A stretch of DNA of 32,909 bases, taken from assembly GCA_030827125.1 (NCBI GenBank), contig JAURFD010000018.1, positions 1 to 32,909 on the forward strand, read 5' to 3'. Position numbers and translations under genes: made by a program. The stretch's first letter is position 1. The number at the start of each line of letters is the position of its first letter. This document shows, piece after piece, positions 18,204-32,909 of this stretch. The stretch is from Candidatus Nanopelagicales bacterium. GTDB lineage: Bacteria > Actinomycetota > Actinomycetes > S36-B12. Under the pieces are notes generated by a model, which did not search any database, was not told the origin of the DNA, and worked only from the letters and a program-made list of their open reading frames with translations.

Positions 18204-18626
18204 ATGGCCATCAAGTACTACCTACAGGTCACCGACATACCCGGTGACGCGACAGCGGCGGACTACCGCAACTGGATTGACACCCTGTCCTACTCGTGGG
18301 GTGGCGACTCGGACACGACCTTCGCCTCAGCAGCCGCGCGGGTCGACCATCGACCGCTCCTCGTCACGACAAACTCCGGCAAGCACACGACTCGGATGCT
18401 GGAGAAGTTCCACACGCGAGGACGCATTCGAACGGCGATCCTCGCCGGTGCAGAGAACCGCACGGAGATCATCCGTGTCACTTTGTCCGACGTGTACATC
18501 GGTCAGTGGGACATGGCCGGATCGTCATCAGCTGACGCCCCCGCTGAGTCCTGGTCCCTGTTCTACGGCAGTGCCCTCGTGGTGCTCGGGAACCTCCAGG
18601 AGGACTGGACCACAGGGTTGCGCTGA
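18204..18626 (+). CDS. Hcp-family protein (type VI secretion tube protein-like)
   Basis: 140 residues; ATG preceded by TAGGAGAGAG, nine bases after the previous gene. The sequence follows the Hcp1 pattern: an opening strand (AIKYYLQVTDIPGDA), IDTLSYSWGGDSD, the loop TTNSGKHTTRMLEKFH, then ILAGAENRTEIIRVTLSDVYIGQW and a closing WSLFYGSALVVL. These match Hcp features such as IDVLAWSWG, SGKH and AGGENQVEYLIITLKEV. Hcp proteins form hexameric rings that stack into the type VI tube or carry effectors. No sheath, VgrG, baseplate or ClpV gene is present, so this must work outside a standard type VI system. No signal peptide is seen. As last gene of a six-gene operon of exported proteins, it may be a ring-forming carrier or structural part. 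Family call good; role unknown. Confidence 0.82.
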   Translation: MAIKYYLQVTDIPGDATAADYRNWIDTLSYSWGGDSDTTFASAAARVDHRPLLVTTNSGKHTTRMLEKFHTRGRIRTAILAGAENRTEIIRVTLSDVYIGQWDMAGSSSADAPAESWSLFYGSALVVLGNLQEDWTTGLR

Positions 18627-20031: not shown

Positions 20032-21168
20032 TCATGAAGCGCCGATGGACTTGCGGTAGTCCATGAGGTCCTTGGTGCGGTTGACGCCGACGACGCCGAC
20101 GACCTCGCCGTCGCGCAGGTACTCCACGATGCAGTCGCCGCTCCATTCCCCATCCACCAGCGTCGCCTCGCCGATGCCGGGCAGGCCGTAGGACTGCAGG
20201 CCGATGTCGTACTGATCGCTCCAGAACGCCGGCATCGGCCGGAAGTCACCGGTCGGCTCCTCACCGTTCAGCAGCGCGCCGAGGGTCTGACCCGCGCGCT
20301 TGCCGGTCTCGGTGGGCAGATTCCAGTGCTCGATGCGTCGCGGCACGTCGTCGAAGCGGGGATTGGGGAAGCGCGCGATGTCGCCGACCGCGACGACGGG
20401 CACATCGGTGCCAAGGACGCGCATCAGATTGTCGGTGAGGACACCGTCGGCAAGGTCGAGGTTGTTGCCGTGCAGCCATTCGACGTTCGGCACGCTGCCC
20501 ACCGCCTCGATAGCGACGTCGGCTGTGAGCCGGGTGCCATCGGCGAGCGTCGCGCCGTCCGCATGGAACTCCGCCACTCCTACACCGAGATGGAACTGGA
20601 CTCCGTGAGCCTCGTGATGTTCGCGCATCGCCGCGCCCAGATGTTCACCGAGCGGTCGCATCATCGGCTGGGCGTCGTACGCCGTCACGGTGACCTCGCA
20701 GCCGAGTTGGCGAGCGGTGGCCGCCACTTCACAGCCGATGAAGCCTGCGCCGATGACCAGCAGCGACGCTCCCGGCGTCAGTCGTTCGCGCAGCCGCAGT
20801 GCGTCATCGACGGTGCGCAGCACCGGGGGCTGCGGGCCGGCCACGGGCAGGTGACGAGGTCGGATGCCGCTGGCGATGACGAGTCCGTCGAAGGTGTACG
20901 CCGCATCATCGACCTCGACCACCCGCGAGGCGAGCGAGCAGCCGGTAACGGCGGCACCGAGGCGCCAGTCGATGTCCTCGTGCTTGCGCCGGAAGTACAG
21001 GCCCTCCACCTCGACGCCGCCCTTGAGCGACTCCTTGGATAGTGGTGGGCGGTTGTAGGGCAGGTAGGGCTCTTCGCCGATGACCGTGACGTCAAAACCC
21101 TGGGCGCGCAGCGACTCCGCCGCCCGCAATCCGCCGAGTCCGGCTCCGACAACGACGACGTGACTCAT
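20032..21168 (-). CDS. NAD(P)H-dependent ferredoxin reductase (FAD, P450 redox partner type)
   Basis: 378 residues. An FAD-binding Rossmann motif opens the protein (HVVVVGAGLGGLRAAESL). The segment PYNRPPLSKE is typical of putidaredoxin-reductase-like enzymes. The NAD(P) Rossmann motif is VIGAGFIGCEVAATA, and the second FAD motif is VPVVAVGDIARF. The start overlaps the ferredoxin stop by one base (TGATG). It should pass electrons from NAD(P)H to the 3Fe-4S ferredoxin encoded just upstream, and so to a P450. The nearest P450 gene is at 26566-27816. Confidence 0.93.
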   Translation of the reverse strand: MSHVVVVGAGLGGLRAAESLRAQGFDVTVIGEEPYLPYNRPPLSKESLKGGVEVEGLYFRRKHEDIDWRLGAAVTGCSLASRVVEVDDAAYTFDGLVIASGIRPRHLPVAGPQPPVLRTVDDALRLRERLTPGASLLVIGAGFIGCEVAATARQLGCEVTVTAYDAQPMMRPLGEHLGAAMREHHEAHGVQFHLGVGVAEFHADGATLADGTRLTADVAIEAVGSVPNVEWLHGNNLDLADGVLTDNLMRVLGTDVPVVAVGDIARFPNPRFDDVPRRIEHWNLPTETGKRAGQTLGALLNGEEPTGDFRPMPAFWSDQYDIGLQSYGLPGIGEATLVDGEWSGDCIVEYLRDGEVVGVVGVNRTKDLMDYRKSIGAS

Positions 21169-21356
21169 CAGGCCGAGATCTCGATGGCCTGCATCGGGCA
21201 GACATCGGCGGCCGACTCCACCTGATCAGCAAGCGCGTCGTCGACCTCGCCCTGATATTCGAGCTTGCCGTCGTCATTGAGGGCGAAGACAGTCGGTGCC
21301 TCAAAGGTGCACTGGCCATAGTGCTGGCACTTGTCCATGTCGACGGTGATCTTCAC
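21168..21356 (-). CDS. 3Fe-4S ferredoxin of P450 type
   Basis: 62 residues from GTG at 21356, directly abutting the preceding TAA, with GAGGAG just upstream. The cluster ligands follow the 3Fe-4S pattern: Cys10 and Cys16 in CQHYGQC and Cys53 in CPM. The second ligand position of a 4Fe-4S set is His12, as in ferredoxins that serve actinobacterial P450s. The acidic body (DDALADQVESAAD) suits docking to P450 and reductase. It is cotranscribed with its reductase. Confidence 0.93.
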   Translation of the reverse strand: MKITVDMDKCQHYGQCTFEAPTVFALNDDGKLEYQGEVDDALADQVESAADVCPMQAIEISA

Positions 21357-22232
21357 TTACTTCTCCTCAATGGTCGAAGGGTAGAGATGCTTGCTTGGCG
21401 TGCGGATTCCGCGGAACTCCCAGTCGCCACCGAGGGCGGTCGAGATGACCTCCTCGCTCTCGGTCGGCTGGGCACCGCAGTCGGTGCGTATGGGTGTGGG
21501 GCCCTCGACGATGTGGTTGGTGAGCTTGCCGAGGCCCTCGACCTCGACCTCGACGACATCGCCGGGCTGCACGGGCCGGGAGTTGGCCGGGGTGCCGGAG
21601 AAGAGCAGATCCCCCGGCACGAGCGTGATCGTGCGCGCGATGTCGGCGACGAGGTAATGCATGTCCCACTCCATCTCGGCGGTGGTGGAGTCCTGCTTCA
21701 CCTCCCCATTGACGAGAGTGCGGATGGCCTTGTCGCGGAAGTCCCAGTCGGTGACGACGCCCGGACCGACCGGCGCGAGTGTGTCCGAACCCTTGACGCG
21801 CAGCATCGAGCCGGCATCCGTGTCGCGGAAGTCGTGCAGGCCGTAGTCGTTGCCGATGGTGTAGCCGGCGATGTAGTCCGCGGCTTGCTCAGGCGAGATG
21901 TTGCGGCAAGTACGACCGATGACGATGACGATCTCGCCCTCGTAGTTCAGCCACTTGCAGCCGGCCGGGCGCACGACTCCGGCCTTGTGCGAGTTCAGGG
22001 CGGTGATGGGCTTGTGGAAGTACGTCGGGGCCGCGGGCAACTTCGTCATGAACTCGTTGGTGCGGCTGGCGTAGTTCAGATGCACCGCGATGATCTTGGT
22101 GGGCTCGACCGGGGGCAGGTGCGCAGCGTCCTCGATGGCGATGGCGCGGCCGTCGCCGGCGACGAGGAGGTCACCTTCGCGGCGTACCTCGCACGGGTAG
22201 CCGTCGAGGAGAATGCGGCGGAACTCGGCCAT
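21357..22232 (-). CDS. hpaG: FAH-family hydrolase: 2-hydroxyhepta-2,4-diene-1,7-dioate isomerase / 5-oxopent-3-ene-1,2,5-tricarboxylate decarboxylase-like
   Basis: 291 residues; ATG overlaps the dioxygenase stop by one base (TGATG). The C-terminal FAH fold is clear: KIIAVHLNYASRTNEF, PTYFHKPITAL, the metal-binding YEGEIVIVIG with Glu, GNDYGLHDFRD, GSDTLAPVGPGVV, and the closing GDLLFSGTPANSRPVQPGD. In homoprotocatechuate breakdown, HpaG/HpcE decarboxylates and isomerises the C7 ring-cleavage product. The length fits a one-domain version, whereas E. coli HpaG carries two FAH domains, so one of the two reactions may depend on another gene. The assignment rests on family plus position between the dioxygenase and electron-transfer genes. 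Confidence 0.85.
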   Translation of the reverse strand: MAEFRRILLDGYPCEVRREGDLLVAGDGRAIAIEDAAHLPPVEPTKIIAVHLNYASRTNEFMTKLPAAPTYFHKPITALNSHKAGVVRPAGCKWLNYEGEIVIVIGRTCRNISPEQAADYIAGYTIGNDYGLHDFRDTDAGSMLRVKGSDTLAPVGPGVVTDWDFRDKAIRTLVNGEVKQDSTTAEMEWDMHYLVADIARTITLVPGDLLFSGTPANSRPVQPGDVVEVEVEGLGKLTNHIVEGPTPIRTDCGAQPTESEEVISTALGGDWEFRGIRTPSKHLYPSTIEEK

Positions 22233-23143
22233 CAGGTACTCGCCTTCTGGGCGCTTTCGCGCCCTCGCGTCCAGCCGGACTCGGGTCGGTCGAACCAGAC
22301 GTGCACCTGGCTGGTACCGATGGCGTTCTCGTAGTCGCTGTACTGCGCGCCGGGGGCGATGAAGTCGGCCTCACCCATCGCTCCGGCCATCATCAGGTAG
22401 TGGGCGAACATGGCCTCGGGCCGCACGGTGAGGAACTCCGGCATGGTCTCGAGCACGAGGTCGTGTCGGCCCTCGGCGAACCACGCCAGGCGCTCGTGAT
22501 CCATGTCGCGCGCCTTCTGGCTGATGATGTGCGAGGGATCGCTCGACTCATGCTTGCGCAGTTCCTTGAGCTTGTAGAAGGTGTGCGAGAGCGAGCCGGT
22601 GGCGATGATGATCACCTTGCGGTCCATCTCGGCGACCGCCTGGCCGATGGCGCGGCCCGCGCGCAGGAAGTCATCGGTCTCGCCGGTCTGACACACGCTC
22701 ATGGAGATCCACCGCTTGTCGAGGCCCTTGCCGAGATAGCTCCACAGGTTGAGCGAGGGGTAGTACAACGGGAGGTACTCGTCGTCGATCGCGGTGATCC
22801 ACGTGCCGTTGGGCTCACCGCGTGCAGCGATCGCCTCGGCGAGCTCAGGGTCGCCGCGCCACTCGAAGGGGATGCGGCACATGCCGCGGGGCAACTCCTC
22901 GGCGGTGAAGAGGCCCGCGCGACGGGCGTGGGAGGTGACGACGAACTCCACCGTGGTGAACCAGTGCGAATCCAGCACGATGACGGTGTCGTAGTCGAGG
23001 GTCTCGAACTTCTCCTTGCGCAGGCGCTCCAGGCCGGTGACGATCGAGATCTCTTTGCCCTCATTGAGTTCGAACCGCACGTCCTTGGGCAGCATGATGG
23101 TGGGCACGTGAGACAGCAGTGCCGCGGCGACAACCTCTCCCAT
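22232..23143 (-). CDS. hpaD: 3,4-dihydroxyphenylacetate 2,3-dioxygenase (class III extradiol, LigB superfamily)
   Basis: 303 residues. The start follows GGAGGTAGTC, two bases after the dehydrogenase stop. The layout matches enterobacterial HpaD/HpcB: ALLSHVPTIMLP with iron-ligand His12, VIVLDSHWFTT with His60, EYLPLYYPSLNLWSYLG, and IIATGSLSHTF near the active-site His. The enzyme uses Fe(II) and O2 to open the ring of homoprotocatechuate between C2 and C3, giving 5-carboxymethyl-2-hydroxymuconate semialdehyde. Its product is the substrate of the dehydrogenase encoded just upstream. A related catechol such as protocatechuate analogues cannot be excluded. Confidence 0.9.
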   Translation of the reverse strand: MGEVVAAALLSHVPTIMLPKDVRFELNEGKEISIVTGLERLRKEKFETLDYDTVIVLDSHWFTTVEFVVTSHARRAGLFTAEELPRGMCRIPFEWRGDPELAEAIAARGEPNGTWITAIDDEYLPLYYPSLNLWSYLGKGLDKRWISMSVCQTGETDDFLRAGRAIGQAVAEMDRKVIIIATGSLSHTFYKLKELRKHESSDPSHIISQKARDMDHERLAWFAEGRHDLVLETMPEFLTVRPEAMFAHYLMMAGAMGEADFIAPGAQYSDYENAIGTSQVHVWFDRPESGWTRGRESAQKAST

Positions 23144-23145
23144 GA

Positions 23146-24612
23146 CTACCTCCAGCCGTTCGGGGAGAAGACGGTGTTCTTCACATCAGCGTAGAAGTCG
23201 AACGACCACACGCCACCCTCGCGGCCAATGCCGGACTTGCGGGAGCCACCGAAGGGGGCACGCAGGTCGCGCACGAAGAAGCAGTTCACCCAAATGGTGC
23301 CGGCGACCAGGTGCTCGCTGATGCGTTCGGCACGGGCACGGTCACCGCAGACCAGGGTTGCGGCCAAGCCGAATTCGGTGTTGTTCGCCAGCGCGATCGC
23401 TTCGTCCTCGCTGTTGAAGGTCTGCATCGTGAGCACGGGACCGAAGACCTCCTGGGTCAAGATCTCCGAGCCGGCTGCCGCGCCGGTGATGAGGGTCGGA
23501 GCGAAGTAGAAGCCGCCGCCCACCGGCTCGATGCGCTCGCCGCCGAAGGCGACCTGGGCGCCGTCCCGGCGGGCGCGCTCGACGAAGCCCTCGATGCGTT
23601 CGAGGTGCGCCGGATGGATCTGGGGGCCGAGGTCGGTCGCCTCGTCGCGCGGGTCGCCCTGCCGGATGTCGCGAACCTTCTCCGCCAGTCGCTCGGCGAA
23701 TTCCGCGGCGATGGACTCGTGCACCAGCAGCCGCGTACCTGCCAGGCACACCTGTCCGGCGTTGTCGTACTGCTCGGCCGCGAGTTCGGCAGCCAGACCG
23801 AGGTCAGCATCGTCCATGACGATCGTCGGTGACTTCCCACCGAGTTCGAAGGAGAGCGGGGTGAGGTTTTCGGCGGCGGCACGAGCCACGGCCTTGGCGG
23901 TTGGCACCGATCCGGTGAAGGACAGGCGTGCGACACCCGGATGGCTCGCAAGGGCGGCACCGGCCTCAATGCCGAGGCCCTGCACGACATTGAAGACACC
24001 GGGCGGCAGGCCGGCTTCAGCGGTGATGTCGGCGAAGAGGCTCGCGGTGAGCGGCGCCCACTCCGGTGGCTTGAGCACGACGGTGTCGCCTGCGGCGAGA
24101 GCAGGACCGATGCGCCAGGTCGCGAGCATGAGCGGTGCGTTCCACGGCGTGATGATGCCGGCGACGCCCGCCGGATCCCAGGAGACGACGTTCGTGTGAC
24201 CGCGCGTCTCGAAGTCCGGATGCGACAGGTCGTTGATGGCGTAGTCGGCGAAGAAGCGGATGTTCAACGCGACGCGTGGCATGACACCGCGCCGATGCGA
24301 GCGCAGCAGCGAGCCGTTGTCGCGTGTCTCGAGTTGGGCGAACTCTTCGACGCGAGCCTCCACGAGGTCCGCGATGCGGTGCAGGATCTCGCCGCGTCCC
24401 TTGGGTCCGAGGCGCGCCCACCCCGGGAACGCCGTACGCGCGGCTGCCACAGCGGCATCAACCTCGGCGGCGCCACCACGGGAGATCTCGCCGAGGACGG
24501 CGCCGTCGATGGGGGAGAGGTTGGTGAAGGTCTCGGCCGAGCCCACCCGCTCGCCGCCGATCCAGTGGCGCGGGTCGACGTGGACGCCGGCGACCTCGAG
24601 GACGTCGTTCAT
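23146..24612 (-). CDS. hpaE: 5-carboxymethyl-2-hydroxymuconate semialdehyde dehydrogenase (aldehyde dehydrogenase family)
   Basis: 488 residues, the usual length of the family. ALDH motifs are complete: VAGIITPWNAPLM, VVLKPPEWAPLTA, LSFTGSVPTAKAV, general base Glu256 in SFELGGKSP, catalytic Cys289 in NAGQVCLAGTR, and EVFGPVLTMQTF. GGAAGG lies eight bases before the ATG. It oxidises the ring-cleavage semialdehyde to the dicarboxylate with NAD+. It is the first gene of the operon; one copy of the island's palindromic operator lies about 50 bases upstream. The specific substrate is inferred from the adjacent hpaD-like and hpaG-like genes. Confidence 0.88.
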   Translation of the reverse strand: MNDVLEVAGVHVDPRHWIGGERVGSAETFTNLSPIDGAVLGEISRGGAAEVDAAVAAARTAFPGWARLGPKGRGEILHRIADLVEARVEEFAQLETRDNGSLLRSHRRGVMPRVALNIRFFADYAINDLSHPDFETRGHTNVVSWDPAGVAGIITPWNAPLMLATWRIGPALAAGDTVVLKPPEWAPLTASLFADITAEAGLPPGVFNVVQGLGIEAGAALASHPGVARLSFTGSVPTAKAVARAAAENLTPLSFELGGKSPTIVMDDADLGLAAELAAEQYDNAGQVCLAGTRLLVHESIAAEFAERLAEKVRDIRQGDPRDEATDLGPQIHPAHLERIEGFVERARRDGAQVAFGGERIEPVGGGFYFAPTLITGAAAGSEILTQEVFGPVLTMQTFNSEDEAIALANNTEFGLAATLVCGDRARAERISEHLVAGTIWVNCFFVRDLRAPFGGSRKSGIGREGGVWSFDFYADVKNTVFSPNGWR

Positions 24613-24661
24613 GGGTGGATCCTTCCCAGGGCAGTGGTCACGGCGGAGCCCTTTGGAGATT

Positions 24662-24675
24662 GTTCGGACCCTAAC
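24662..24675. promoter_or_regulatory. Candidate MarR operator, copy a (hpaE operon)
   Basis: GTTCGGACCCTAAC fits the shared palindrome GTTYGG-N2-CCRAAC with one mismatch. It lies 50 bases before the hpaE start, in promoter position. Confidence 0.55.
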
Positions 24676-24738
24676 GGATTTTCCTCCGCACCGCCAGAGG
24701 TTTCCCCCTCATCCCCCACCCTCGCCATATTCCATGGC

Positions 24739-25218
24739 CTAGGTAGAGAGCTTCCGCGCGTACGTCGCATCGAGGGCGAGGAGGAAAGCCCCCTGGATGA
24801 TGATCGCCACGCCGTCGCCGCGCCCCATCCGGAACGATGTCCGCTCGGGGATCACCTGCCCGCCGAGATCGACGCGGGCGGGCTTGGCGTGGAAGGCCAC
24901 GTGCGCGCCCCCGGCGATGTAGAGGACATCCGCGGCGGCGTTCGCGATGAGCATGAGCTGCAGGCGACGGCGCTGGGTCTGAACCTCCTCATCGGAGAGT
25001 TCACCCCGGCGCGATCGGCTGAGGGTGCCGGCACCGGCGATGAGGCCATCGATGGCACCCCACATGGCGGTTTGCCGGCCGAAGCGCACCCACTGCCTGC
25101 GTCCGGTACGCCGACCGAGCAGGGCAATCGCCGAGCCCTTGATCACGCTGCCCACCGCCCAGGCGCCGAGGAGGGTGCTGATCTGTCGCTCGTTGCTCTC
25201 TAACTCCTGCTGATTCAT
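24739..25218 (-). CDS. Small membrane protein, unknown function
   Basis: 159 residues. About four hydrophobic segments are visible: LLGAWAVGSVIKGSAIALLG, AMWGAIDGLIAGAGTL, LMLIANAAADVLYIAGGAHVAF and VAIIIQGAFLLALDATYA. An Arg-rich cytoplasmic loop (RRRLQ) and a Gly/Pro-rich stretch with MGRGDGVA lie between them. No catalytic motif or named family recognised. It is divergent from the gamma-glutamyl hydrolase gene with only 37 bases between starts, so the two share a promoter region. No strong Shine-Dalgarno is visible. Confidence 0.75.
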   Translation of the reverse strand: MNQQELESNERQISTLLGAWAVGSVIKGSAIALLGRRTGRRQWVRFGRQTAMWGAIDGLIAGAGTLSRSRRGELSDEEVQTQRRRLQLMLIANAAADVLYIAGGAHVAFHAKPARVDLGGQVIPERTSFRMGRGDGVAIIIQGAFLLALDATYARKLST

Positions 25219-25255
25219 GTCGTCAGCATGTCATCGACCGCACTACCCTGCCGGA

Positions 25256-25939
25256 GTGACTCGTCCCCGAATCGCTCTGCTGGGCCGCTTTGCCGAGCAC
25301 ACCTCGGCCACGCGCTACGCCGCGGTGGTGTCCGCTCGGGCACTGCTGGAGTCACTCTGGCTCGCCGGCGCTGAGCCCGTCACGCTGCTCCCGGCGCCCG
25401 GGCCGGAGGGCATGGATTGGCCAGCGCGCCTATCTGGGGTCGACGGTGTCCTGCTCGCCGGTGGCGCGGACATCGATCCGCGCCTGTATGGCGAGTCCGA
25501 CATCCACCCCGAGGTGTACGACGTCGACGCGCTGCAGGACGAGGCCGATATCTCCCTGGCGACGTACTCTCTTGATGGCGGCATTCCGACGCTCGCCGTC
25601 TGCCGTGGGCTACACATCCTCAACGTCGCACGCGGCGGCACCCTGGTGCAGCACATGGACGCGCATCACCGGCACGTGGTCCATGACGTCGTCGTCGAAC
25701 GTGAGGTGCCCGGGTTTGCGGCGGGTCCCATTACGGCGTCCTGCTATCACCACCAATGCGTCGATCAGCTCGGGGAGGGCCTTGAGGTCATAGGCCGTGC
25801 GGAAGATGGCACCATCGAGGCGCTGGCCATCGATTCGCCGGGCTGGGCGTTCGCCGTGCAATGGCACCCGGAGGACACGGCCAAGGACGATCCCCGTCAA
25901 CTCGAGGTGTTGCAGGCGTTGGTCGCAGCGTCGCGCTGA
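25256..25939 (+). CDS. Gamma-glutamyl-gamma-aminobutyrate hydrolase-like (PuuD, peptidase C26)
   Basis: 227 residues from GTG at 25256 after CCGGA. An in-frame ATG at 25217 would add 13 residues unlike the family. Class-I glutamine amidotransferase fold: DGVLLAGGADIDPRLYGE, nucleophile Cys116 in AVCRGLHILN, and His204 and Glu206 in QWHPED. The usual CRGxQ is CRGLH here, a small change beside the nucleophile. Family members cleave gamma-glutamyl bonds, as PuuD does in putrescine breakdown. A gamma-glutamyl ligase-like gene lies nearby (29682-31040), so it may release a gamma-glutamylated intermediate. Confidence 0.85.
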   Translation: MTRPRIALLGRFAEHTSATRYAAVVSARALLESLWLAGAEPVTLLPAPGPEGMDWPARLSGVDGVLLAGGADIDPRLYGESDIHPEVYDVDALQDEADISLATYSLDGGIPTLAVCRGLHILNVARGGTLVQHMDAHHRHVVHDVVVEREVPGFAAGPITASCYHHQCVDQLGEGLEVIGRAEDGTIEALAIDSPGWAFAVQWHPEDTAKDDPRQLEVLQALVAASR

Positions 25940-25975
25940 CGCGCTCAGGTGGGGATCCCTCGAGTCTTGCCGCAG

Positions 25976-26461
25976 CTACTCGGTGGCCTCGGTGAGTGCG
26001 CGCAGCATCGCGGCGGCGCCGCCGAGGTCCTCGACATGCTGCGTGACGGCGCGCTCCTCGGCGTTGAACTTCGGGAAGAGCCCGCGCATGAGCTTCTCGC
26101 CGACGGGAGTGAGGGACACGTCGACCAGGCGGCCGTCGGTAGTACTCCGCGCACGCTCGACCAGCCCACGCTTCTCCAGTGTGGTGAGCACCCCGGAAAG
26201 GGTGGCCTTAGAGAATCCACCCTCCGCCGCGATGACCCGGGTCTCCACCGGCTCCCAGATCCACACCACCCACAGCACAACAAAGGCCGTCCAGGTGAGA
26301 TCGGCTGGAGCCAGCACCGTGCGCTCGAGGTGGTTGCGGACCGAGTTCGCCGCCCGGAAGAGATTGGAGACCACGGCCATCGCCTCGTAGTCGAGGGTGA
26401 GGTCGCTGAGGCGCTCGGTGACCTGGCGCTCGGTCTCGGCGAGGGTGTGGGGGCCAGCCAT
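25976..26461 (-). CDS. MarR-family transcriptional regulator
   Basis: 161 residues from ATG at 26461. The frame is open to an ATG at 26503, but that codon lies at the edge of the operator, so the shorter start is preferred. The winged-helix core is clear: DYEAMAVVSNLFRAANSVRNHLE, then LTWTAFVVLWVVW, recognition region FSKATLSGVLTTLEKRGLVER and the wing STTDGRLVDVSLTPVGEKL. MarR proteins usually repress divergent catabolic genes and release DNA on binding an aromatic ligand. It is divergent from the P450 gene, and two copies of the palindrome lie between them. It is the likely regulator of all five sites in the island. Confidence 0.9.
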   Translation of the reverse strand: MAGPHTLAETERQVTERLSDLTLDYEAMAVVSNLFRAANSVRNHLERTVLAPADLTWTAFVVLWVVWIWEPVETRVIAAEGGFSKATLSGVLTTLEKRGLVERARSTTDGRLVDVSLTPVGEKLMRGLFPKFNAEERAVTQHVEDLGGAAAMLRALTEATE

Positions 26462-26487
26462 GGCGAGAAGTGTCGCAGAACCCTTCC

Positions 26488-26501
26488 GTTCGGCCCCAAA
26501 C
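26488..26501. promoter_or_regulatory. Candidate MarR operator, copy b1 (MarR side)
   Basis: GTTCGGCCCCAAAC matches GTTYGG-N2-CCRAAC exactly. It lies 27 bases from the MarR start, so would give autoregulation. Centre-to-centre distance to copy b2 is 34 bases. Confidence 0.65.
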
Positions 26502-26521
26502 ATCTGGCACTATCACCAATA

Positions 26522-26535
26522 GTTTGGGCCCGAAC
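26522..26535. promoter_or_regulatory. Candidate MarR operator, copy b2 (P450 side)
   Basis: GTTTGGGCCCGAAC matches the consensus exactly. With flanks, it forms a 15-base inverted repeat with copy b1 with a single mismatch. It lies 30 bases before the P450 start. Confidence 0.65.
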
Positions 26536-26565
26536 GATCGGGTCGGCGTGCCCCAGGAGGTTTGC

Positions 26566-27816
26566 GTGTCTGTGAAGAACGACGTCACCCTGGCTGATCT
26601 CGACCTGTTCGAAGCCGGGCCGCCCTGGGCGACCTTCGACGCTCTGCGCAGCGAAGATCCAGTGCACTGGGATGTCGAGCCCGAACCCAATCACGGCTTC
26701 TGGTCCATCACTCGCTATCACGACATCGTCGACGTCTTGCGCGACACCGAGACGTTCTCCAGTGAGAAGGGCACGGTCAACCTCGAGGAACTCGATGAAG
26801 AGCAGATGCGGGTGCGCAAGTCGATGCTCGAGACCGACGGCGAACGGCACCGTGCCTTGCGCAAGCTCATGCAAGGTCAGTTCACGCCGCGCGCACTCGC
26901 CGGATACGAGACCTTCCTGCGCGGACTCACCGCATCGACCTTGGACGCAGCGTTCACCAAGGGCGAATTCGACTTCGTCGCCGACGTCGCAGCAGACTTC
27001 CCGATTCGCGTACTCGCCCGCATGCTCGACGTACCTGACATGGATATCCCGCAACTCATTGCCTGGGGCAACCGGATGGTCGGCAACACCGACCCCGAGC
27101 ATGCCGACGTGCTCGCGAGCGATCCGGAGAGCGAGAAGTACCGCATGCTTCCCTTCCGTTCACCCGCCGCCCTGGAGGTGTGGGCGTACGGCGACGAGTT
27201 GCGACGTCAGCGTGAGGGTCGCGACGGCACCGACTTGGTGTCCATGCTGGTCAACGAGACGCCGATGGACGGCAAGCCGCTCACCGAGGATGACTTCCAC
27301 GCGTACTTCCTGCTGCTCGTCGTGGCCGGCAACGAGACCACACGGCACACGATCAGTCACACGATGAACAACCTCATCGACCATCCCGATCAACTGCGTC
27401 GCCTGCAGGAGGATCCGTCGCTGATTCCGTGGGCCGTCGAGGAGTTCCTGCGCTTCGCAAGCCCCGTCTATCACTTCCGGCGTACGGCGACCCACGATGT
27501 GGAGATGCACGGCAGGCAGATCAAGGAAGGCGACAAGGTGGTCACGTGGTTCGCCTCGGGCAATCGTGACGGTGAGGTCTTCCCGGACCCGTATGTCTTC
27601 GATGTCACACGCAAGCCCAATGAGCACATGGCGTTCGGCCGCGGCGGGCCGCACATGTGCCTGGGCAACTCCCTGGCTCGCCTGGAGATCACGATCATGT
27701 TCGAGGACCTCATCTCGCGCATTGACTACGTGGAGCGCACCGGGCCGGTTGAGCGGTTGCGGTCGAACTTCGTCAACGGCATCAAGCGCTTCCCGGTACG
27801 GGTCCAACTGAGGTAG
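26566..27816 (+). CDS. Cytochrome P450 (CYP124/125/142-like signature)
   Basis: 416 residues from GTG at 26566, chosen because AGGAGG lies five bases upstream; the frame is open further back through the operators, which cannot be coding. P450 motifs: HRALRKLMQGQFTP (C-helix), I-helix AGNETTRHT (254-262), ExxR in VEEFLRFASP, and heme-ligand Cys365 in FGRGGPHMCLGNSLARLE. The signature is like actinobacterial CYP124/125/142 enzymes, but the location is in an aromatic-degradation island. It is soluble and needs a ferredoxin and reductase; both are encoded in the hpa-type operon nearby. Likely role is hydroxylation or N-/O-dealkylation of the pathway substrate. Substrate unknown. Confidence 0.93.
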   Translation: MSVKNDVTLADLDLFEAGPPWATFDALRSEDPVHWDVEPEPNHGFWSITRYHDIVDVLRDTETFSSEKGTVNLEELDEEQMRVRKSMLETDGERHRALRKLMQGQFTPRALAGYETFLRGLTASTLDAAFTKGEFDFVADVAADFPIRVLARMLDVPDMDIPQLIAWGNRMVGNTDPEHADVLASDPESEKYRMLPFRSPAALEVWAYGDELRRQREGRDGTDLVSMLVNETPMDGKPLTEDDFHAYFLLLVVAGNETTRHTISHTMNNLIDHPDQLRRLQEDPSLIPWAVEEFLRFASPVYHFRRTATHDVEMHGRQIKEGDKVVTWFASGNRDGEVFPDPYVFDVTRKPNEHMAFGRGGPHMCLGNSLARLEITIMFEDLISRIDYVERTGPVERLRSNFVNGIKRFPVRVQLR

Positions 27817-27833
27817 TTCCACTCCCTCCTTGC

Positions 27834-27895
27834 GCCGAGTGCTGAGTTGCGGGGTAATTTGCGAGCTTTTTTTGCCCCGCTACTCGACACTCGGC
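27834..27895. repeat. Long palindromic repeat, copy 1, downstream of the P450 gene
   Basis: 21-base arms (27834-27854 and 27875-27895) pair at 18 positions. They begin GCCGAGTG and end GCGGGG, with the mirror CCCCGC...CTCGACACTCGGC. The loop contains seven Ts (27867-27873). It starts 17 bases after the P450 stop, so it may serve as a terminator. The stop codon of the DUF559 gene lies in the right arm. Confidence 0.8.
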
Positions 27896-28758
27896 AGGTG
27901 GGATCTGGATCTGAAGGCGGCGCTGACCTTGGCGCGCAGCAGTGGCGGGTGGGATATGTCCTCACCCACGACGGTGACGACGAGCCAGTCATTGACGGCG
28001 AGCTTCCCCCTGCGGGCGGCGTCCTTGGCTTGGGTCTCCCGCGTGAGGTGATGCTCCCCGTCGTACTCGATGACGATCCGTTTGTCGATGTACACGAGGT
28101 CGCCGCGGGCGATGAACTGCCCCATCTCGTCCACGATGTCGACCTGGGGTGTGGGTGCGGGGAATCCCATCTCAAGGAGCATGATCCGCAGGACGGATTC
28201 GCGAGGTGACTCAGCCCGGGGATCGAGCAGAGCTAGTGCTTGTCGCGCACGGCGTACTCCTCGCTGGCCGCGAGACCGATCGAGCACTTCGGCGATGTCG
28301 GATCCCGAGCAGAGGTCGCGCCGCAGGAAGTCATCGCCCACAGCGACGAGGCGTGGGAGTTTTAGTTGCGAAGCAACGTCCACGAAGGTGCGCTGGGGAG
28401 TTGTCACTGCCAGTCCGTGAAGGTCTGTCACGTCCCGCTGATCAAGTTGTCGGCGCCGGCAGCGCACCCCAGGTCGAACTATCAATGGGTCATCCGCGCC
28501 GACTGTCACCTCGAGGTCATCGTCGCGATCCTCGACTCCGTCGCAGAGTCTGATGGCGGAGAGGCCGCTGAAGACGACTGTGCGCTTCGAGACGATGTTG
28601 ACTGCTTCGCATCGGGCCAGGAATCCGTGCTCCTCGAGCGGGAGCCGTACTCCTCGGCTGGGCCGCCAGTAGCCCTTGCCGTGCTGCCATCGGGTGAGGT
28701 CCGTGACAAGGCGGGCTCCATGGGGAGTGGGGGTGGGTTGAGGTTGTGGAAGGGACAT
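27880..28758 (-). CDS. DUF559-type (Vsr-like) endonuclease domain protein
   Basis: 292 residues. The N-terminal part (about 1-190) includes GYWRPSRGVRLP and TTPQRTFVDVASQL, as in AbiEi-like winged-helix regions that often precede this domain. The C-terminal part holds the PD-(D/E)XK/Vsr-like core: FIARGDLVYIDKRIVIEYDGEHH with Asp and Glu as metal-binding candidates, then DAARRGKLAVNDWLVVTVVGEDI. The last five residues (LPSVE) and stop are encoded within palindrome copy 1. The gene is bracketed by two palindrome copies. It does not fit the catabolic island and is probably an insertion. A role as a DNA nuclease is inferred from the family; whether it acts on the repeats is speculation. Confidence 0.85.
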   Translation of the reverse strand: MSLPQPQPTPTPHGARLVTDLTRWQHGKGYWRPSRGVRLPLEEHGFLARCEAVNIVSKRTVVFSGLSAIRLCDGVEDRDDDLEVTVGADDPLIVRPGVRCRRRQLDQRDVTDLHGLAVTTPQRTFVDVASQLKLPRLVAVGDDFLRRDLCSGSDIAEVLDRSRGQRGVRRARQALALLDPRAESPRESVLRIMLLEMGFPAPTPQVDIVDEMGQFIARGDLVYIDKRIVIEYDGEHHLTRETQAKDAARRGKLAVNDWLVVTVVGEDISHPPLLRAKVSAAFRSRSHLPSVE

Positions 28759-28847
28759 ACCCCCACCGTGTGCGCGGATAAGCCAAAGTGCCCCGATCGC
28801 CGAGGGGGCTGTGGGTGTCCGGCCCTCCCCGACCCTGTGGACCTCTC

Positions 28848-28908
28848 GCCGAGTGTCGAGTTGCGGGGCGAATATCAGCCAAAAGCCTCTCGCTTCTCGA
28901 CACTCGGC
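28848..28908. repeat. Long palindromic repeat, copy 2, downstream of the amidotransferase gene
   Basis: The left arm (28848-28868) begins GCCGAGTGTCGAG and the right arm ends CTCGACACTCGGC, a perfect 13-base outer stem. A TT/TT mismatch and GCG/CGC pairs continue it. The left arm matches copy 1 except at two adjacent bases (TC here, CT in copy 1). It lies 9 bases past the amidotransferase stop. Confidence 0.8.
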
Positions 28909-28917
28909 GAGGAGGGC

Positions 28918-29625
28918 TCAGATCTCGATGACGACCTGATCGAGGAAGGCGTCGACGAGTGCGTGGGCGCGGGCGACCGCGGCTGGCTCCTCACGAACGG
29001 TCCCAGCGAGCAATTCCGCGGGGTCGACGCCGTCCTTCTCGGCTTCTGCGACGCCGCCCTCTTCCAGCCAGCCCGCCAGGCACGCGGCGGTGACCTCGGG
29101 ATGGAACTGCATCGCCAGGGAGCGGCCGATCACGAAGGCCTGGGACGCGCGAGCATTGCGTGCGATCTCGACGGCGCCGGGCGGGATGCTGAAGCGGTCG
29201 TAGTGCCACTGGAACCACGGCCCGTTGGGCACCAACTCCTGGTCGTCGGAGTTGATCCAGGTGTAGCCGATCTCGGCGCGCGGCCCGGGTGCGACGGTGC
29301 CGCCGAGTGCGCGCGCCAGCGCCTGGGCACCGAAGCAGATCGCGAAGATGGGCACATCGTGCTTGTGCAGATCACGCAGCCAGTCGAGCTCGGGCTTGAG
29401 CCAGGTGCCGATGCGATCATCATCCCAGGCCCCCCAGGGAGCACCCATGGGTACGACGACGTCGTGCTCATGGATTTCGGGGAAGTCGAAGTCGACGTCG
29501 GGGGAGAAGAAGCGGTCGCGCGGCACCACCACGGACTCGACGACCTCAAAGCCGCGCGCGGCAAACCGATCGGCGATCGGTCCCGGCGGGCTCACATGGT
29601 CATGCTGCAAAAACAGGACCCGCAT
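28918..29625 (-). CDS. Class-I glutamine amidotransferase-like protein
   Basis: 235 residues; GGGGAGGA lies about eight bases before the ATG. Triad: Cys97 in FAICFGAQALARALGG, His175 and Glu177 in MQFHPEV. The N-terminus (VLFLQHDHVSPPGPIADRFAARGFEV) resembles stand-alone GMP-synthase-like amidotransferases and gamma-glutamyl hydrolases. It is divergent from the glutamine-synthetase-like gene with only 56 bases between starts, so both may share operator copy c. In aniline breakdown a ligase/amidotransferase pair (AtdA1/AtdA2, TdnQ/TdnT) makes and controls a gamma-glutamyl-arylamide; this pair could be analogous. The exact reaction is unknown. Confidence 0.85.
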   Translation of the reverse strand: MRVLFLQHDHVSPPGPIADRFAARGFEVVESVVVPRDRFFSPDVDFDFPEIHEHDVVVPMGAPWGAWDDDRIGTWLKPELDWLRDLHKHDVPIFAICFGAQALARALGGTVAPGPRAEIGYTWINSDDQELVPNGPWFQWHYDRFSIPPGAVEIARNARASQAFVIGRSLAMQFHPEVTAACLAGWLEEGGVAEAEKDGVDPAELLAGTVREEPAAVARAHALVDAFLDQVVIEI

Positions 29626-29653
29626 GCGGCCATCCTCCCCTACGATCCAAGTC

Positions 29654-29667
29654 GTACGCCCCCGAAC
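29654..29667. promoter_or_regulatory. Candidate MarR operator, copy c (ligase/amidotransferase divergent region)
   Basis: GTACGCCCCCGAAC fits GTTYGG-N2-CCRAAC with two mismatches, both in the left half. It lies in the 56-base divergent gap, 14 bases before the ligase start and 28 from the amidotransferase start. Confidence 0.45.
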
Positions 29668-29681
29668 GATCGGAGTAAATC

Positions 29682-31040
29682 ATGGATGCGCACCGCCCGC
29701 TCGACCTCTCCGATGTCCGCGCCAGCCTGCAGGCCCGCGGGATTGACGTCCTGCGCGTGCTCTACTCCGACGTCCTCGGCGTCACCCGGTCCAAGGACAT
29801 GCTGGTGAGCCAGATCGAACGCGCCCTTGGCCACGGCCCGACCTTTTGCCAGGGTGTCTGGGTCACCACCACGCAAGGTGGGGTGCTGGACGGTCAGGGG
29901 TCAATTTCGGACGGTCTGCCCGACCTGGTGACCCAGATCGTCCCCAGCATGATCCGCGACATCCCGTGGGAGCCGGGGGTGGCATACGTCGTCGCCGATG
30001 TCTTCGAACCGGACGGTTCACGTCATCAGATAGCCCCGCGCTCGGTTCTGCAGAACGTCATCGACGGATACGGCGAACTCGGCCTCACGCCGGTGACGGG
30101 GCCTGAACTCGAGTACTACGTGATGGAAGAGCGCGACGGTGTGTGGGAGCGCACCTTCGATCACAAGGGCTTGGTCTATACGACCGGGGCCATGGTCGAT
30201 CCGCATGGGTACTTCCTGCACACGCTGCGCATGTGCGACAAGCTTGACATCGGGGCCTTCGCCGGCAACCACGAGTTTTCGCCGTCGCAGTACGAAATCA
30301 ACCTGTGGCATGCCGACGCCATGTTGTCCGCCGATCGCACCTTCATCTTCAAGGCCGCCATCAAGGACATCACGCACCGGCAGGGCTTCCTCGCCTCGTT
30401 CATGGGCAAGCCTTTCAACGACGAGGGCGGCAGCGGCTTCCACCTCCACTTCTCCGTGGAACGTGGTGGCGACAACGTGATGGCCGATGCGAGTGGCGAA
30501 CTAAGCGAAACCGCCCTGTCGATGATCGCGGGCATCCTTGAACACGCCCCGGCACTGGCGGCGCTGACCAACCCAACGGTCAACGCCTTCAAGCGGCTCG
30601 GGCCGGACACGCTCGCGCCGTACCGGATCAATTGGGGAATGGACAATCGCTCGACCATGGTGCGGATCCCTCCGGAGCGCGGCCGCGGCACCCGACTGGA
30701 GTTGCGCATCGGCGATGGCGCGGCGAACCCCTATGTCATCTCCGCCGCGGTGCTCGCGGCTGCACTCGATGGCATTCGACGCAATCTCACGCCGCCGGCG
30801 GCCCTCGAGGGATGGACCTACGAGGACGAGACCGCTGATGTCCTGCCGATGACGTTGGAGGATGCGCTCGCGGCCCTGCAGCACGACGACGTCCTGAAGG
30901 ACCTGCTCGGCGAGCAGTTCGTGACGACGTTCATCACGATGAAGTCAGACGAGATCGAGCGCTACACCGAAGCGGTGGAGGACCCGGCGACCCGCGATGT
31001 GACACCCTGGGAGGTCACGGAGTACCTCCTTCACTACTGA
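29682..31040 (+). CDS. Glutamine-synthetase-family gamma-glutamyl-amine ligase
   Basis: 452 residues; GGAG eight bases before the ATG. Glutamine-synthetase catalytic segments are present: GPELEYYVM, GNHEFSPSQYEINL, GSGFHLHFSVE, TNPTVNAFKRLGP, NRSTMVRIP and RLELRIGDGAANPY. The NPTVNAFKR and ELRIGDGAANPY forms are typical of GlnA3/PuuA-like members, which join glutamate to an amine, rather than housekeeping GlnA. The adenylylation region of GlnA is not obvious. It should use ATP, glutamate and an amine to form a gamma-glutamylamide in the cytoplasm. The neighbouring amidotransferase, the PuuD-like hydrolase and the P450 support an amine pathway. The stop codon abuts that of the monooxygenase on the other strand. 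Confidence 0.88.
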   Translation: MDAHRPLDLSDVRASLQARGIDVLRVLYSDVLGVTRSKDMLVSQIERALGHGPTFCQGVWVTTTQGGVLDGQGSISDGLPDLVTQIVPSMIRDIPWEPGVAYVVADVFEPDGSRHQIAPRSVLQNVIDGYGELGLTPVTGPELEYYVMEERDGVWERTFDHKGLVYTTGAMVDPHGYFLHTLRMCDKLDIGAFAGNHEFSPSQYEINLWHADAMLSADRTFIFKAAIKDITHRQGFLASFMGKPFNDEGGSGFHLHFSVERGGDNVMADASGELSETALSMIAGILEHAPALAALTNPTVNAFKRLGPDTLAPYRINWGMDNRSTMVRIPPERGRGTRLELRIGDGAANPYVISAAVLAAALDGIRRNLTPPAALEGWTYEDETADVLPMTLEDALAALQHDDVLKDLLGEQFVTTFITMKSDEIERYTEAVEDPATRDVTPWEVTEYLLHY

Positions 31041-31045
31041 TCAGT
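31036..31045. other. Abutting convergent stop codons in a TGATCA palindrome
   Basis: The ligase TGA (31038-31040) is followed at once by the monooxygenase stop (31041-31043 on the minus strand). Both sit in the palindrome ACTGATCAGT, leaving no room for a terminator between them. Confidence 0.8.
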
Positions 31046-31979
31046 GTGCGGTGTCGCGGGCAACGCGTTCGACCACTTCTTGGCAGAAGCGAGCGTGATC
31101 GGCTGCGTCGTCGATGAAGATCGACGGCTTGATGGCGAACGTCGTGAATCCTAATTCACGCTGGCGTGGGATCTCCTCGAGCGCTTCAGGCAATGAGGCG
31201 CACGAGTGATCGTCAGGGAAGTTCACGCGGGTGCCGCCCACCATCTCGAACTCGGTCAGATCGCGACCACCAGCGTGGATCCGCGCACGTAGATCGGCGA
31301 TGTCCGCCTCATCCACTCGACCCACCGGATGAAAACCCGAGCCGTATGCCAGGAGGCGCCTCACCACGTGATCGCTGGCCCGTTCGCCACCGAACCACAT
31401 GGCCGGGCCCTCGGGGCGCCACGGCTTGGGCTCGACGTACGCGTCATCGAAGTTGAAGAACTCACCATGGAACGAAGCCGGCGACTCACCCCAGGCCAAA
31501 CGGAGAATGGCGAGTTGTTCATCAAGGATCTTGCCGCGGTGCCCAAAGTCGACGCCGAGTGCCGCGTACTCGTCGCGATGCCACGAGACTGTCGGCTGGA
31601 TGACGAGTCGGCCCTCACTGAGCAGGTCGAGTGCGGCGAGATCGTGCGCGAGTGCGAGCGGATGCCGCAACGGGGCAATGAGAGCAATGGCGCCAATGCG
31701 GATGCGTGAGGTCGCTTGAGCTATCGCTGAGAGTAGGACGAGGTTCGACGGCCAGGGCGTGGCCGGGTCCTGGTTGCCGGGCATCGCGTAATCGCGCGGA
31801 TTGGCCATTCGGCCCTGGGAGCCGGCCGACGGTCCAAGGACGATGTGGTCGCTCACCATGACCATGTCGAAGCCGGCATCCTCGGCCTCCTGGGCCATCC
31901 GGACGATGGCGCGCAGGTCCCGCGGGTTGACGATGGTCCAGTTCTCGGTGAGCACCGAGACCATGCGTGGAGCGTCCAT
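31041..31979 (-). CDS. Luciferase-like monooxygenase (LLM class, possibly F420-dependent)
   Basis: 312 residues from ATG at 31979, which overlaps the preceding stop by one base (TAATG). An upstream in-frame ATG would overlap the previous gene and is not used. TIM-barrel LLM features: FDMVMVSDHIVLG, AQATSRIRIGAIALIAPLRHPLALAHDLAALDLLSEGRLVIQPTVSW, GHRGKILDEQLAILRLAWG and PAMWFGGE. Such enzymes use FMN or F420 to oxidise or reduce small organic substrates. It is coupled to the acetoacetate-decarboxylase-like gene and follows operator copy d. Cofactor and substrate cannot be read from the sequence. Confidence 0.88.
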   Translation of the reverse strand: MDAPRMVSVLTENWTIVNPRDLRAIVRMAQEAEDAGFDMVMVSDHIVLGPSAGSQGRMANPRDYAMPGNQDPATPWPSNLVLLSAIAQATSRIRIGAIALIAPLRHPLALAHDLAALDLLSEGRLVIQPTVSWHRDEYAALGVDFGHRGKILDEQLAILRLAWGESPASFHGEFFNFDDAYVEPKPWRPEGPAMWFGGERASDHVVRRLLAYGSGFHPVGRVDEADIADLRARIHAGGRDLTEFEMVGGTRVNFPDDHSCASLPEALEEIPRQRELGFTTFAIKPSIFIDDAADHARFCQEVVERVARDTAH

Positions 31980-32776
31980 TAGATCGGCTGGGAGCGGTCG
32001 GTCAAGAGCGTGCCTCCCGCGAAAGTCACGCCAACCTCGCGGTAGTAGCCGTCGATGACCTCGCGCACCGGCAGCAGTGAGGCCGGCTGATCCCATGCGG
32101 AGTCGAAGAGATCGAGCGTCGCTTCTCCGCGCCAGGGCTGGCCGAGGTCGGCGTCGATGCCACCCATGGTGACCACCTGATCCAGGCTCAACGCACCACC
32201 AGCGATGCTCGGCATCTGTCGGTGATGCAACATCGGGAGTGCATTCACGAACCCGTTGGTGTCACTCGGCTCGGTCAATGTCACCTTCGCCGTTGCAAGC
32301 CGATGGTCGTACGCCGCCAGGGTGGCGCCGAAGGTGCCCCCGGGTGCGACACGCGGCGCCGCCTTGCCGTGGTTCATTGCGCGTGTGACAAAGATGCTGC
32401 CGAGCTTCTTGGGGTAGCCCTGGAACCAGCCCCGCCCGATCGCGAAGTCGGTCGTCACCCAGATGAGGACGCAGCGGCTGTACGTCGTGCCCTCGTATGA
32501 GCACCGCACGACCGCGAAGGTCTCGAGGTACTGCGAACGCGAGGGGTCGAGCAACTCGCGTCCGTCGGCACTGCACGACTGCCAATCGGCCCAGATGAAG
32601 GCAACGGCCCCCGGATCCTCCGGCGCGAGATCCACATCAGCGGGCAGGAGAGCGCGCACCTTCTCGACGTCGGTGCGGTACTCAACCGTGAGCAGGGTGC
32701 CGGAGTAGAACCACGGCATCTCGGGCACGAGCGCCGAGCCGCCGTCGTCGGTGAAGGGAGGCAGGAAGCCAGCCAC
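31979..32776 (-). CDS. Acetoacetate decarboxylase-family protein
   Basis: 265 residues from GTG at 32776, with AAGGAG seven bases upstream. The family signature is clear: WFYSGTLLTVEYRTD, IWADWQ, FAVVRCSYEG, and GYPKKLGSIF with Lys123/Lys124 at the place of the Schiff-base lysine pair of Clostridium ADC (Lys115/Lys116). C-terminal PMLHHRQMPS also fits. Many members are not acetoacetate decarboxylases but catalyse decarboxylation or aldol-type reactions on keto acids. Translation is coupled to the luciferase-like monooxygenase, and a 22-base palindrome of the island's operator lies in the promoter region. It probably handles a keto-acid intermediate of the same pathway; inferred only. Confidence 0.88.
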   Translation of the reverse strand: MAGFLPPFTDDGGSALVPEMPWFYSGTLLTVEYRTDVEKVRALLPADVDLAPEDPGAVAFIWADWQSCSADGRELLDPSRSQYLETFAVVRCSYEGTTYSRCVLIWVTTDFAIGRGWFQGYPKKLGSIFVTRAMNHGKAAPRVAPGGTFGATLAAYDHRLATAKVTLTEPSDTNGFVNALPMLHHRQMPSIAGGALSLDQVVTMGGIDADLGQPWRGEATLDLFDSAWDQPASLLPVREVIDGYYREVGVTFAGGTLLTDRSQPI

Positions 32777-32815
32777 GGGTCACTCCTTGTCGAAGGCTCA
32801 GGCGAGGCTAGTGGA

Positions 32816-32837
32816 ATTCGTTCGGACCCGCACGAAT
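32816..32837. promoter_or_regulatory. Candidate MarR operator, copy d (ADC-like/monooxygenase operon)
   Basis: A 22-base palindrome with arms ATTCGTTCGG and CCGCACGAAT, one mismatch, centred on AC. The core GTTCGGACCCGCAC (32820-32833) fits the shared consensus with one mismatch. It lies about 40 bases before the GTG start. Confidence 0.6.
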
Positions 32838-32862
32838 TTGTCGAATGTGCTTGACCCGGCTA

Positions 32863-32876
32863 GTGATGTGCGTCAC
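32863..32876. promoter_or_regulatory. Possible CRP/GlxR-like site
   Basis: GTGA-N6-TCAC matches the core of CRP-type sites (TGTGA-N6-TCACA) but lacks the outer bases. It is upstream of the ADC-like operon near the window edge and could serve a gene beyond it. Confidence 0.25.
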
Positions 32877-32909
32877 CCTCATCGATCATTAGGGGCCGTA
32901 CGAGGCGAG

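Follow-up and report, generated by a model that had tools for sequence, protein, structure and literature searches.

A conserved palindrome points to a probable MarR-controlled catabolic regulon in a freshwater Nanopelagicales bacterium

The window analysed here is the complete contig JAURFD010000018.1 (32,909 nucleotides; contig C9) from assembly GCA_030827125.1 of a Candidatus Nanopelagicales bacterium, and it carries a gene for a MarR-family regulator among genes for ring-cleavage-type enzymes, a cytochrome P450 (P450), a glutamine synthetase-like (GS-like) ligase, a glutamine amidotransferase-like protein (GATase) and an acetoacetate-decarboxylase-family (ADC) protein. The same palindrome lies before five gene sets in this window, recurs before the orthologous genes of other genera, is almost restricted to these promoters and co-occurs with the gene cluster in related genomes. 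On this sequence evidence we judge it highly probable that the MarR protein (25976–26461) is an autoregulating repressor that controls a conserved catabolic regulon through the palindrome. As the operator is common to the regulator and the enzyme genes of one cluster, these genes are very probably switched on together, and their joint induction would very probably serve the degradation of an aromatic compound—probably an amine-linked one—in this freshwater actinobacterium. An earlier note, made from the letters of the window, had proposed that the palindrome unites otherwise unrelated genes as a MarR regulon; orthologous promoters, near absence of the motif within the operon and co-occurrence with the cluster all support that proposal.

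The assembly comprises 2.6 Mb in 82 contigs and is 97% complete; its nearest named relatives are metagenome assemblies labelled Candidatus Nanopelagicales or Actinomycetota. A scan for MarR relatives across named genomes returned 545 coding places, of which the best 80, drawn mainly from lake and river actinobacterial metagenome assemblies, were used; together with 20 further stretches these made 100, reduced to 86 loci by removal of 14 duplicates. Genome-level comparisons relied on a panel of 59 related genomes, the source genome counted in. Matches from tblastn spanning less than half of the query were left out of the counts, while upstream regions were dropped if shorter than 120 bases (counts at up to one mismatch) or of 80 bases or fewer (counts at up to two mismatches and the enumeration of inverted repeats). 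Two descriptions of the palindrome were searched: the 14-base core GTTYGG-N2-CCRAAC and a sequence-only model, R1, built from 79 operators in other genera with the source genus excluded. Gene calls around genome-wide core matches came from a simple codon-usage caller trained on the window genes.

Putative operators in the window and across the genome

The regulator and the five putative operators are as follows; the palindromes have no strand assigned.

24657–24680: putative operator before the row of HpaE-, HpaD- and HpaG-like, ferredoxin, reductase and decarboxylase genes; core 24662–24675
25976–26461, minus strand: MarR-family regulator, proposed repressor; PF01047, 48.2 bits (cut-off 24.6)
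26485–26502: putative operator O1 before marR; exact core 26488–26501
26518–26539: putative operator O2 before the P450 gene; exact core 26522–26535, the strongest site
29649–29671: putative operator between the divergent GATase and GS-like genes; core 29654–29667, seen in a five-genome alignment
32815–32838: putative operator before the ADC/luciferase-like unit; core 32820–32833

A pattern scan confirmed the five cores with the mismatches claimed for them in the earlier note: one at 24662, none at 26488 and 26522, two at 29654 and one at 32820. All five also lie, as had been said, shortly upstream of gene starts, 14–49 bases from the start codon: the distance from the core is 49 bases for the hpaE-like gene, 30 bases for the P450 gene (GTG at 26566), 43 bases for the ADC gene and 26 bases for marR, assuming its ATG at 26461 (an alternative longer frame from the ATG at 26503 would place core 26488 within the gene). 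Site 29654 stands 14 bases from the GS-like start codon and 28 from that of GATase; it is before both genes, as proposed, but these form a divergent pair with one common site rather than an operon. The centres of O1 and O2 are 34 bp apart, and O2 is retained in 6/6 aligned genomes. Operator blocks are directly visible in sister-genome alignments.

Used on its own to search the genome, the core proved unable to discriminate. It occurs at 34 places in the source genome when up to one mismatch is allowed, against 10 for a backwards-pattern control; of the 34, three are exact (two in the window) and 31 carry one mismatch (three in the window). Of the 29 cores outside the window, 27 lie within predicted genes, whereas four of the five inside it are intergenic (Fisher p = 0.0015). 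The genome scan with the 14-base core that had been suggested as a check thus gave a mixed answer at one mismatch and became decisive only once the motif was extended. R1, run over the whole source genome at E ≤ 10, returned nine matches, every one of which falls on one of the five sites, read on a single strand or on both; 150 of 844 first-look candidates were scored. It again reported the five sites only when run on the window plus 28 stretches containing every other core of up to one mismatch. A separate matrix scored 27.6 at 24662, 15.8 at 26488, 27.7 at 26522, 16.5 at 29654 and 26.2 at 32820, all above the maximum of 12.2 found in about 144 kb of other DNA from the same genome.

These results bear on the possibility that five places in a G+C-rich genome resemble one another by chance. 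The core is common, with its 29 further matches outside the window, and at up to three mismatches the window holds 46 matches where 46.4 are expected, which is chance level, so that the claim depends on the good matches. Set against this, none of 200 sham matrices made by symmetric column permutation yielded five window matches, the other DNA scanned stayed below the lowest of the five, the R1 whole-genome search reported these five only, and orthologous promoters carry the motif (see below). The sequence data already contradict chance resemblance, which we regard as exceedingly improbable.

Some additional cores were considered. One with a single mismatch at 31382, absent from the earlier list, lies within the luciferase-like gene; it was the next best R1 match in the window after the five when filters were off, and its in-gene position and 7.4 bits ruled it out as a regulatory site. 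The exact core at C26:1193 was rejected: it is inside an oxidoreductase gene and its matrix score of 12.2 is below all five. Two sites outside the window are intergenic. At C7:7885 (locus L193) a one-mismatch core stands 57 bases upstream of a row of genes beginning with a PotA-like ATP-binding cassette (ABC) ATPase, and it was considered as a candidate further promoter: 21 other orthologues (at least 66% identity) have no core with up to one mismatch, two distant ones have two mismatches and the closest has three, and the R1 whole-genome search did not report the site. The second, C23:6825, is upstream of a DUF222 gene.

Conservation of the palindrome and its proposed regulator

Across the compared loci, the motif reappears before the equivalent genes of other genera, where gene order differs. 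Cores with up to two mismatches at −160 to +20, followed by those with up to one mismatch at −200 to +45, were counted for marR in 74/83 and 37/83 loci, for P450 in 73/79 and 37/79, for GATase in 55/72 and 26/72, for the GS-like gene in 56/69 and 28/69, for ADC in 44/57 and 14/57, for HpaE in 32/72 and 18/72, and for the peptidase C26-type gene in 24/51 and 8/51. As marR and P450, and likewise GATase and the GS-like gene, often use a common intergenic region, their counts are not independent. Operon-internal and other genes gave, in the same order, 0/66 and 0/66 (HpaD), 2/63 and 0/63 (HpaG), 0/52 and 0/52 (ferredoxin reductase), 3/18 and 0/18 (decarboxylase) and 1/16 and 1/16 (luciferase-like, LLM). 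In the one-mismatch test, 59 permuted palindromes matched on average 0.1–0.5 regions; the top single value was 9, for marR and P450, with one permuted palindrome matching 9/83 marR regions where the marR mean was 0.4.

An enumeration of every 6-base inverted repeat with a gap of 0–8, made independently of the core pattern, ranked this palindrome and its outward-shifted forms highest for the marR, GATase, HpaE and ADC regions; the HpaD and HpaG regions gave different repeats, at best in 19/66 and 16/63. Over 221 sites, the arms extend to aaATCGTTCGGnnCCGAACGATtt, and the version at marR promoters has outer arms ATTGTT-N8-AACAAT with inner bases CGGnnCCG. Repeats of this kind might be kept for another cause, namely common ancestry of entire promoter regions or the formation of RNA hairpins: some of the compared loci are closely related, and palindromes can fold as RNA. 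We hold this very improbable, however, since the information content beyond the palindrome drops to 0.0 bits, a block of 23 identical bases at site 24662 (aligned with relative G010, ahead of its HpaE-like gene) sits amid poorly conserved flanks, the letters themselves, beyond mere pairing, are kept across several dissimilar promoters, and a terminator scan reported none of the operator sites.

At the level of whole genomes, MarR orthologues were found in 22 of the 59 and R1 matches in 32 (E ≤ 0.1, stricter filters). R1 matches occur in every one of the 28 genomes that have marR, HpaG or the GS-like gene, against 4 of the 31 others (tallied by hand); among those four, G009 has its site next to an ADC orthologue, while G011, G036 and G058 each have a single weak match (E 0.047–0.07). 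This co-occurrence is partly by construction, because sites from relatives beyond the source genus trained R1; within the source genus, outside the training set, 11/11 genomes have matches. Counted by hand, 38 of the 50 exact cores in the 22 marR genomes stand beside regulon genes, and the 37 genomes with no marR match have 34 exact cores altogether.

Several observations weigh against a MarR-controlled regulon. The training sites of R1 were picked with the core of the earlier note at up to one mismatch; HpaE has no core with up to two mismatches in 40/72 loci, many of them from Microbacteriaceae; O1 is degenerate in an alignment with relative G006; and site 29654 is weak. Six genomes (G001, G007, G008, G010, G021 and G025) have pathway genes and no marR match, in fragmented assemblies of 280–560 contigs. 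A promoter scan of the region recognised none where 0.7 were expected, so that an overlap of operator and promoter is putative and activation, if improbable, is an alternative.

Two alternatives draw on these points. The palindrome could be a genuine common operator bound by a different regulator, whose gene lies at some other place in the genome, as the six genomes might suggest and as would suit the TetR gene that, in one relative at least (L082), is the neighbour of the ADC operator. Yet the sites flank marR and recur there in 74/83 loci; their geometry fits known MarR operators; and the motif accompanies a marR orthologue (51%) in G035, where a strong operator precedes the gene on a contig of only 6 kb (C80, L316) and HpaG and the GS-like gene gave no match at the thresholds applied. 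We consider another regulator unlikely, and the evidence strongly suggests that a single protein, namely this MarR, reads all the sites. (Downstream of marR in G035 lie genes for a MerR/TOBE protein and ABC transport.) A little less unlikely, though still improbable, is that MarR binds but activates, or activates some promoters and represses others. Besides the empty promoter scan, dual regulators are known in the MarR family, among them HpaR of Yersinia (PMC7180172) and AcsR (PMC13118786). Repression is favoured by the short distances from operator to start codon, a position typical of repressors, and by the majority of characterised MarR proteins being repressors (PMC9613470).

Proposed regulon genes and the predicted pathway

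Besides marR, the following genes of the window were considered.

18672–20021, minus strand: pyridoxal-phosphate-dependent group II type amino-acid decarboxylase; start uncertain
20032–21168, minus strand: ferredoxin reductase
21168–21356, minus strand: small ferredoxin; PF13459
21357–22232, minus strand: HpaG-like isomerase/decarboxylase (FAA hydrolase family); 205.9 bits, cut-off 276.4
22232–23143, minus strand: HpaD-like LigB-type extradiol dioxygenase; TIGR02298, 119.8 bits, cut-off 315.95
23146–24612, minus strand: HpaE-like aldehyde dehydrogenase; TIGR02299, 521.3 bits, cut-off 638.35
25217–25939, plus strand: peptidase C26-type gamma-glutamyl hydrolase-like protein
26566–27816, plus strand: cytochrome P450; closest solved relatives of CYP125/CYP124 type
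28918–29625, minus strand: class I glutamine amidotransferase-like protein; nucleophile Cys in 73/73 orthologues
29682–31040, plus strand: GS-like ligase; ammonium-site residues replaced
31041–31979, minus strand: luciferase-like (LLM) oxidoreductase
31979–32776, minus strand: ADC-family protein; Lys pair in 60/60 orthologues
32884–32903, no strand assigned: weak candidate sixth operator; core 32888–32901, degenerate, 6.5 bits with R1

The name 'hpaE operon' given to the first row by the earlier note is loose: its HpaD-, HpaE- and HpaG-like products belong to the right families for the homoprotocatechuate (hpa) pathway, but all fall under the NCBIfam equivalog cut-offs. The HpaI aldolase model has no match in the source genome, and the HpaH hydratase model has three, all under the cut-off and none in the window. 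Catalytic residues are kept in other products, with the P450 Cys in 78/78 orthologues and the C26 nucleophile Cys in 51/51, and the P450, the small ferredoxin (21168–21356) and the reductase form what by sequence is an electron-transfer set. In the GS-like ligase, the position of Asp holds Cys or Ser in 70/70 orthologues and that of Glu holds Leu or Met in 68/68; we take these positions to be the ammonium-site Asp and the catalytic Glu of true glutamine synthetase. The protein has the GS fold without the ammonium-site residues, which is how we defined a GoaS-type ligase for this analysis (the definition is ours and not from a paper), and an organic amine is therefore favoured as its substrate. 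Just beyond the row, at 18204–18626, lies a gene for an Hcp-like protein (type VI secretion tube family) in this actinobacterium, with neighbours that have fibronectin and TIG domains.

The regulon appears to reach past the right end of the window. The candidate sixth site is 68 bp from site 32820 and 34 bases before the start codon of a permease gene. It corresponds to the second site of four relatives (G001, G003, G005 and G007), in which ADC diverges from an amino-acid permease gene and two sites stand at a spacing of 67 bp. The final 77 bases of the window (32833–32909) are repeated at the end of contig C8 (L317, L318), where the source genome has its own permease gene, with 83% identity to the G005 permease; from this overlap of contig ends, the C8 permease gene is therefore the right-hand neighbour, divergent from ADC. 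Elsewhere, in G002 (C435, L301) and G007 (C87, L302), a site also precedes a gene for an Orn/Lys/Arg-type decarboxylase, behind which is a PotA-like ABC ATPase gene, preceded in G002 by a prolyl oligopeptidase gene; an operator before such decarboxylase genes hints at an amine substrate. G040 and G056 (family f7; L042, L190) have a P450–ADC unit that also encodes a PaaE-like reductase and a Rieske oxygenase of VanA type, as judged from a domain scan in G056 only (locus L042).

That this MarR binds and represses is our inference, as are its inducer, the pathway substrate and the sequence in which the reactions occur. A MarR dimer would sit on the 20–24 bp inverted repeat aaATCGTTCGGnnCCGAACGATtt upstream of the five gene sets of the window, and probably also before the permease gene beyond it, and would keep both its own gene and the catabolic genes repressed. 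An inducer, probably either an intermediate or the aromatic or amine substrate itself, would release it from the DNA. The permease would then import the substrate, the GS-like ligase would gamma-glutamylate the amine, the P450 with ferredoxin and reductase would oxidise the gamma-glutamyl compound, the amidotransferase would take off the glutamyl group, and the HpaD/E/G-like enzymes and the ADC-family protein would cleave the ring and process the products. The route would thus run from amine to gamma-glutamyl amide, to oxidised product, to ring cleavage.

The regulon may govern a pathway that has not been described. More specifically, we propose, as a real possibility that falls short of probable, a MarR protein with a G+C-centred 24-bp operator governing an undescribed aromatic-amine pathway (permease, gamma-glutamyl mask, P450, HpaD-like ring opening) in which an ADC-family Schiff-base enzyme replaces HpaI, widespread in freshwater Nanopelagicales and Microbacteriaceae. 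The operator gathers differently annotated genes in one regulon and so defines the gene set of a conserved pathway, and the regulator could be used to find the regulon's substrate. The cultured relatives Microcella and Frigoribacterium have an equivalent cluster with its sites.

Comparison with known systems

A search of openly licensed PubMed Central papers found no publication on this regulon or on the letters of its operator, a result that holds for those papers. In the pathway, the closest parallels are the aniline and 1-naphthylamine clusters (AtdA1, NpaA1), in which a GS-like ligase glutamylates an organic amine before ring oxidation; those clusters use a dioxygenase system, whereas a P450 with ferredoxin and HpaD/E/G-like enzymes are found here (PMC11335346).

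The MarR protein has the winged-helix domain of its family, and its profile (A1) matches the structures of MgrA, OhrR and HpaR. HpaR, repressor of the hpa-meta (homoprotocatechuate) operon in E. coli W and Yersinia, is likewise encoded beside an extradiol meta-cleavage set and combines several palindromic sites with self-regulation, comparable to what is proposed here (PMC7180172). The Yersinia operator, TTAA-N4-TTAA, differs from the consensus aaATCGTTCGGnnCCGAACGATtt of the present sites (PMC7180172), the protein scores 43.0 bits with the HpaR equivalog model (TIGR02337), which has its cut-off at 121.2, and the regulon described here, unlike that of HpaR, adds P450, GS-like, GATase, ADC and permease genes. 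The regulator would be HpaR-like in its way of working, yet it falls under the HpaR cut-off, and as a MarR regulon the system is ordinary in kind.

Similar in its letters is the operator of the MarR-type BmrR of Bifidobacterium longum, ATTGTTG-N6-CAACAAT, whose outer arms and spacing equal those of the marR-promoter version (PMC13118786) and whose inner bases differ from the CGGnnCCG seen here. AcsR and AesR of Corynebacterium glutamicum, also of MarR type, resemble the proposed system in being actinobacterial and linked to aromatic compounds, with palindromic operators and multiple targets; their operators, unlike those of this regulon, are A/T-rich or of ACTATG type, and they act on other target genes.

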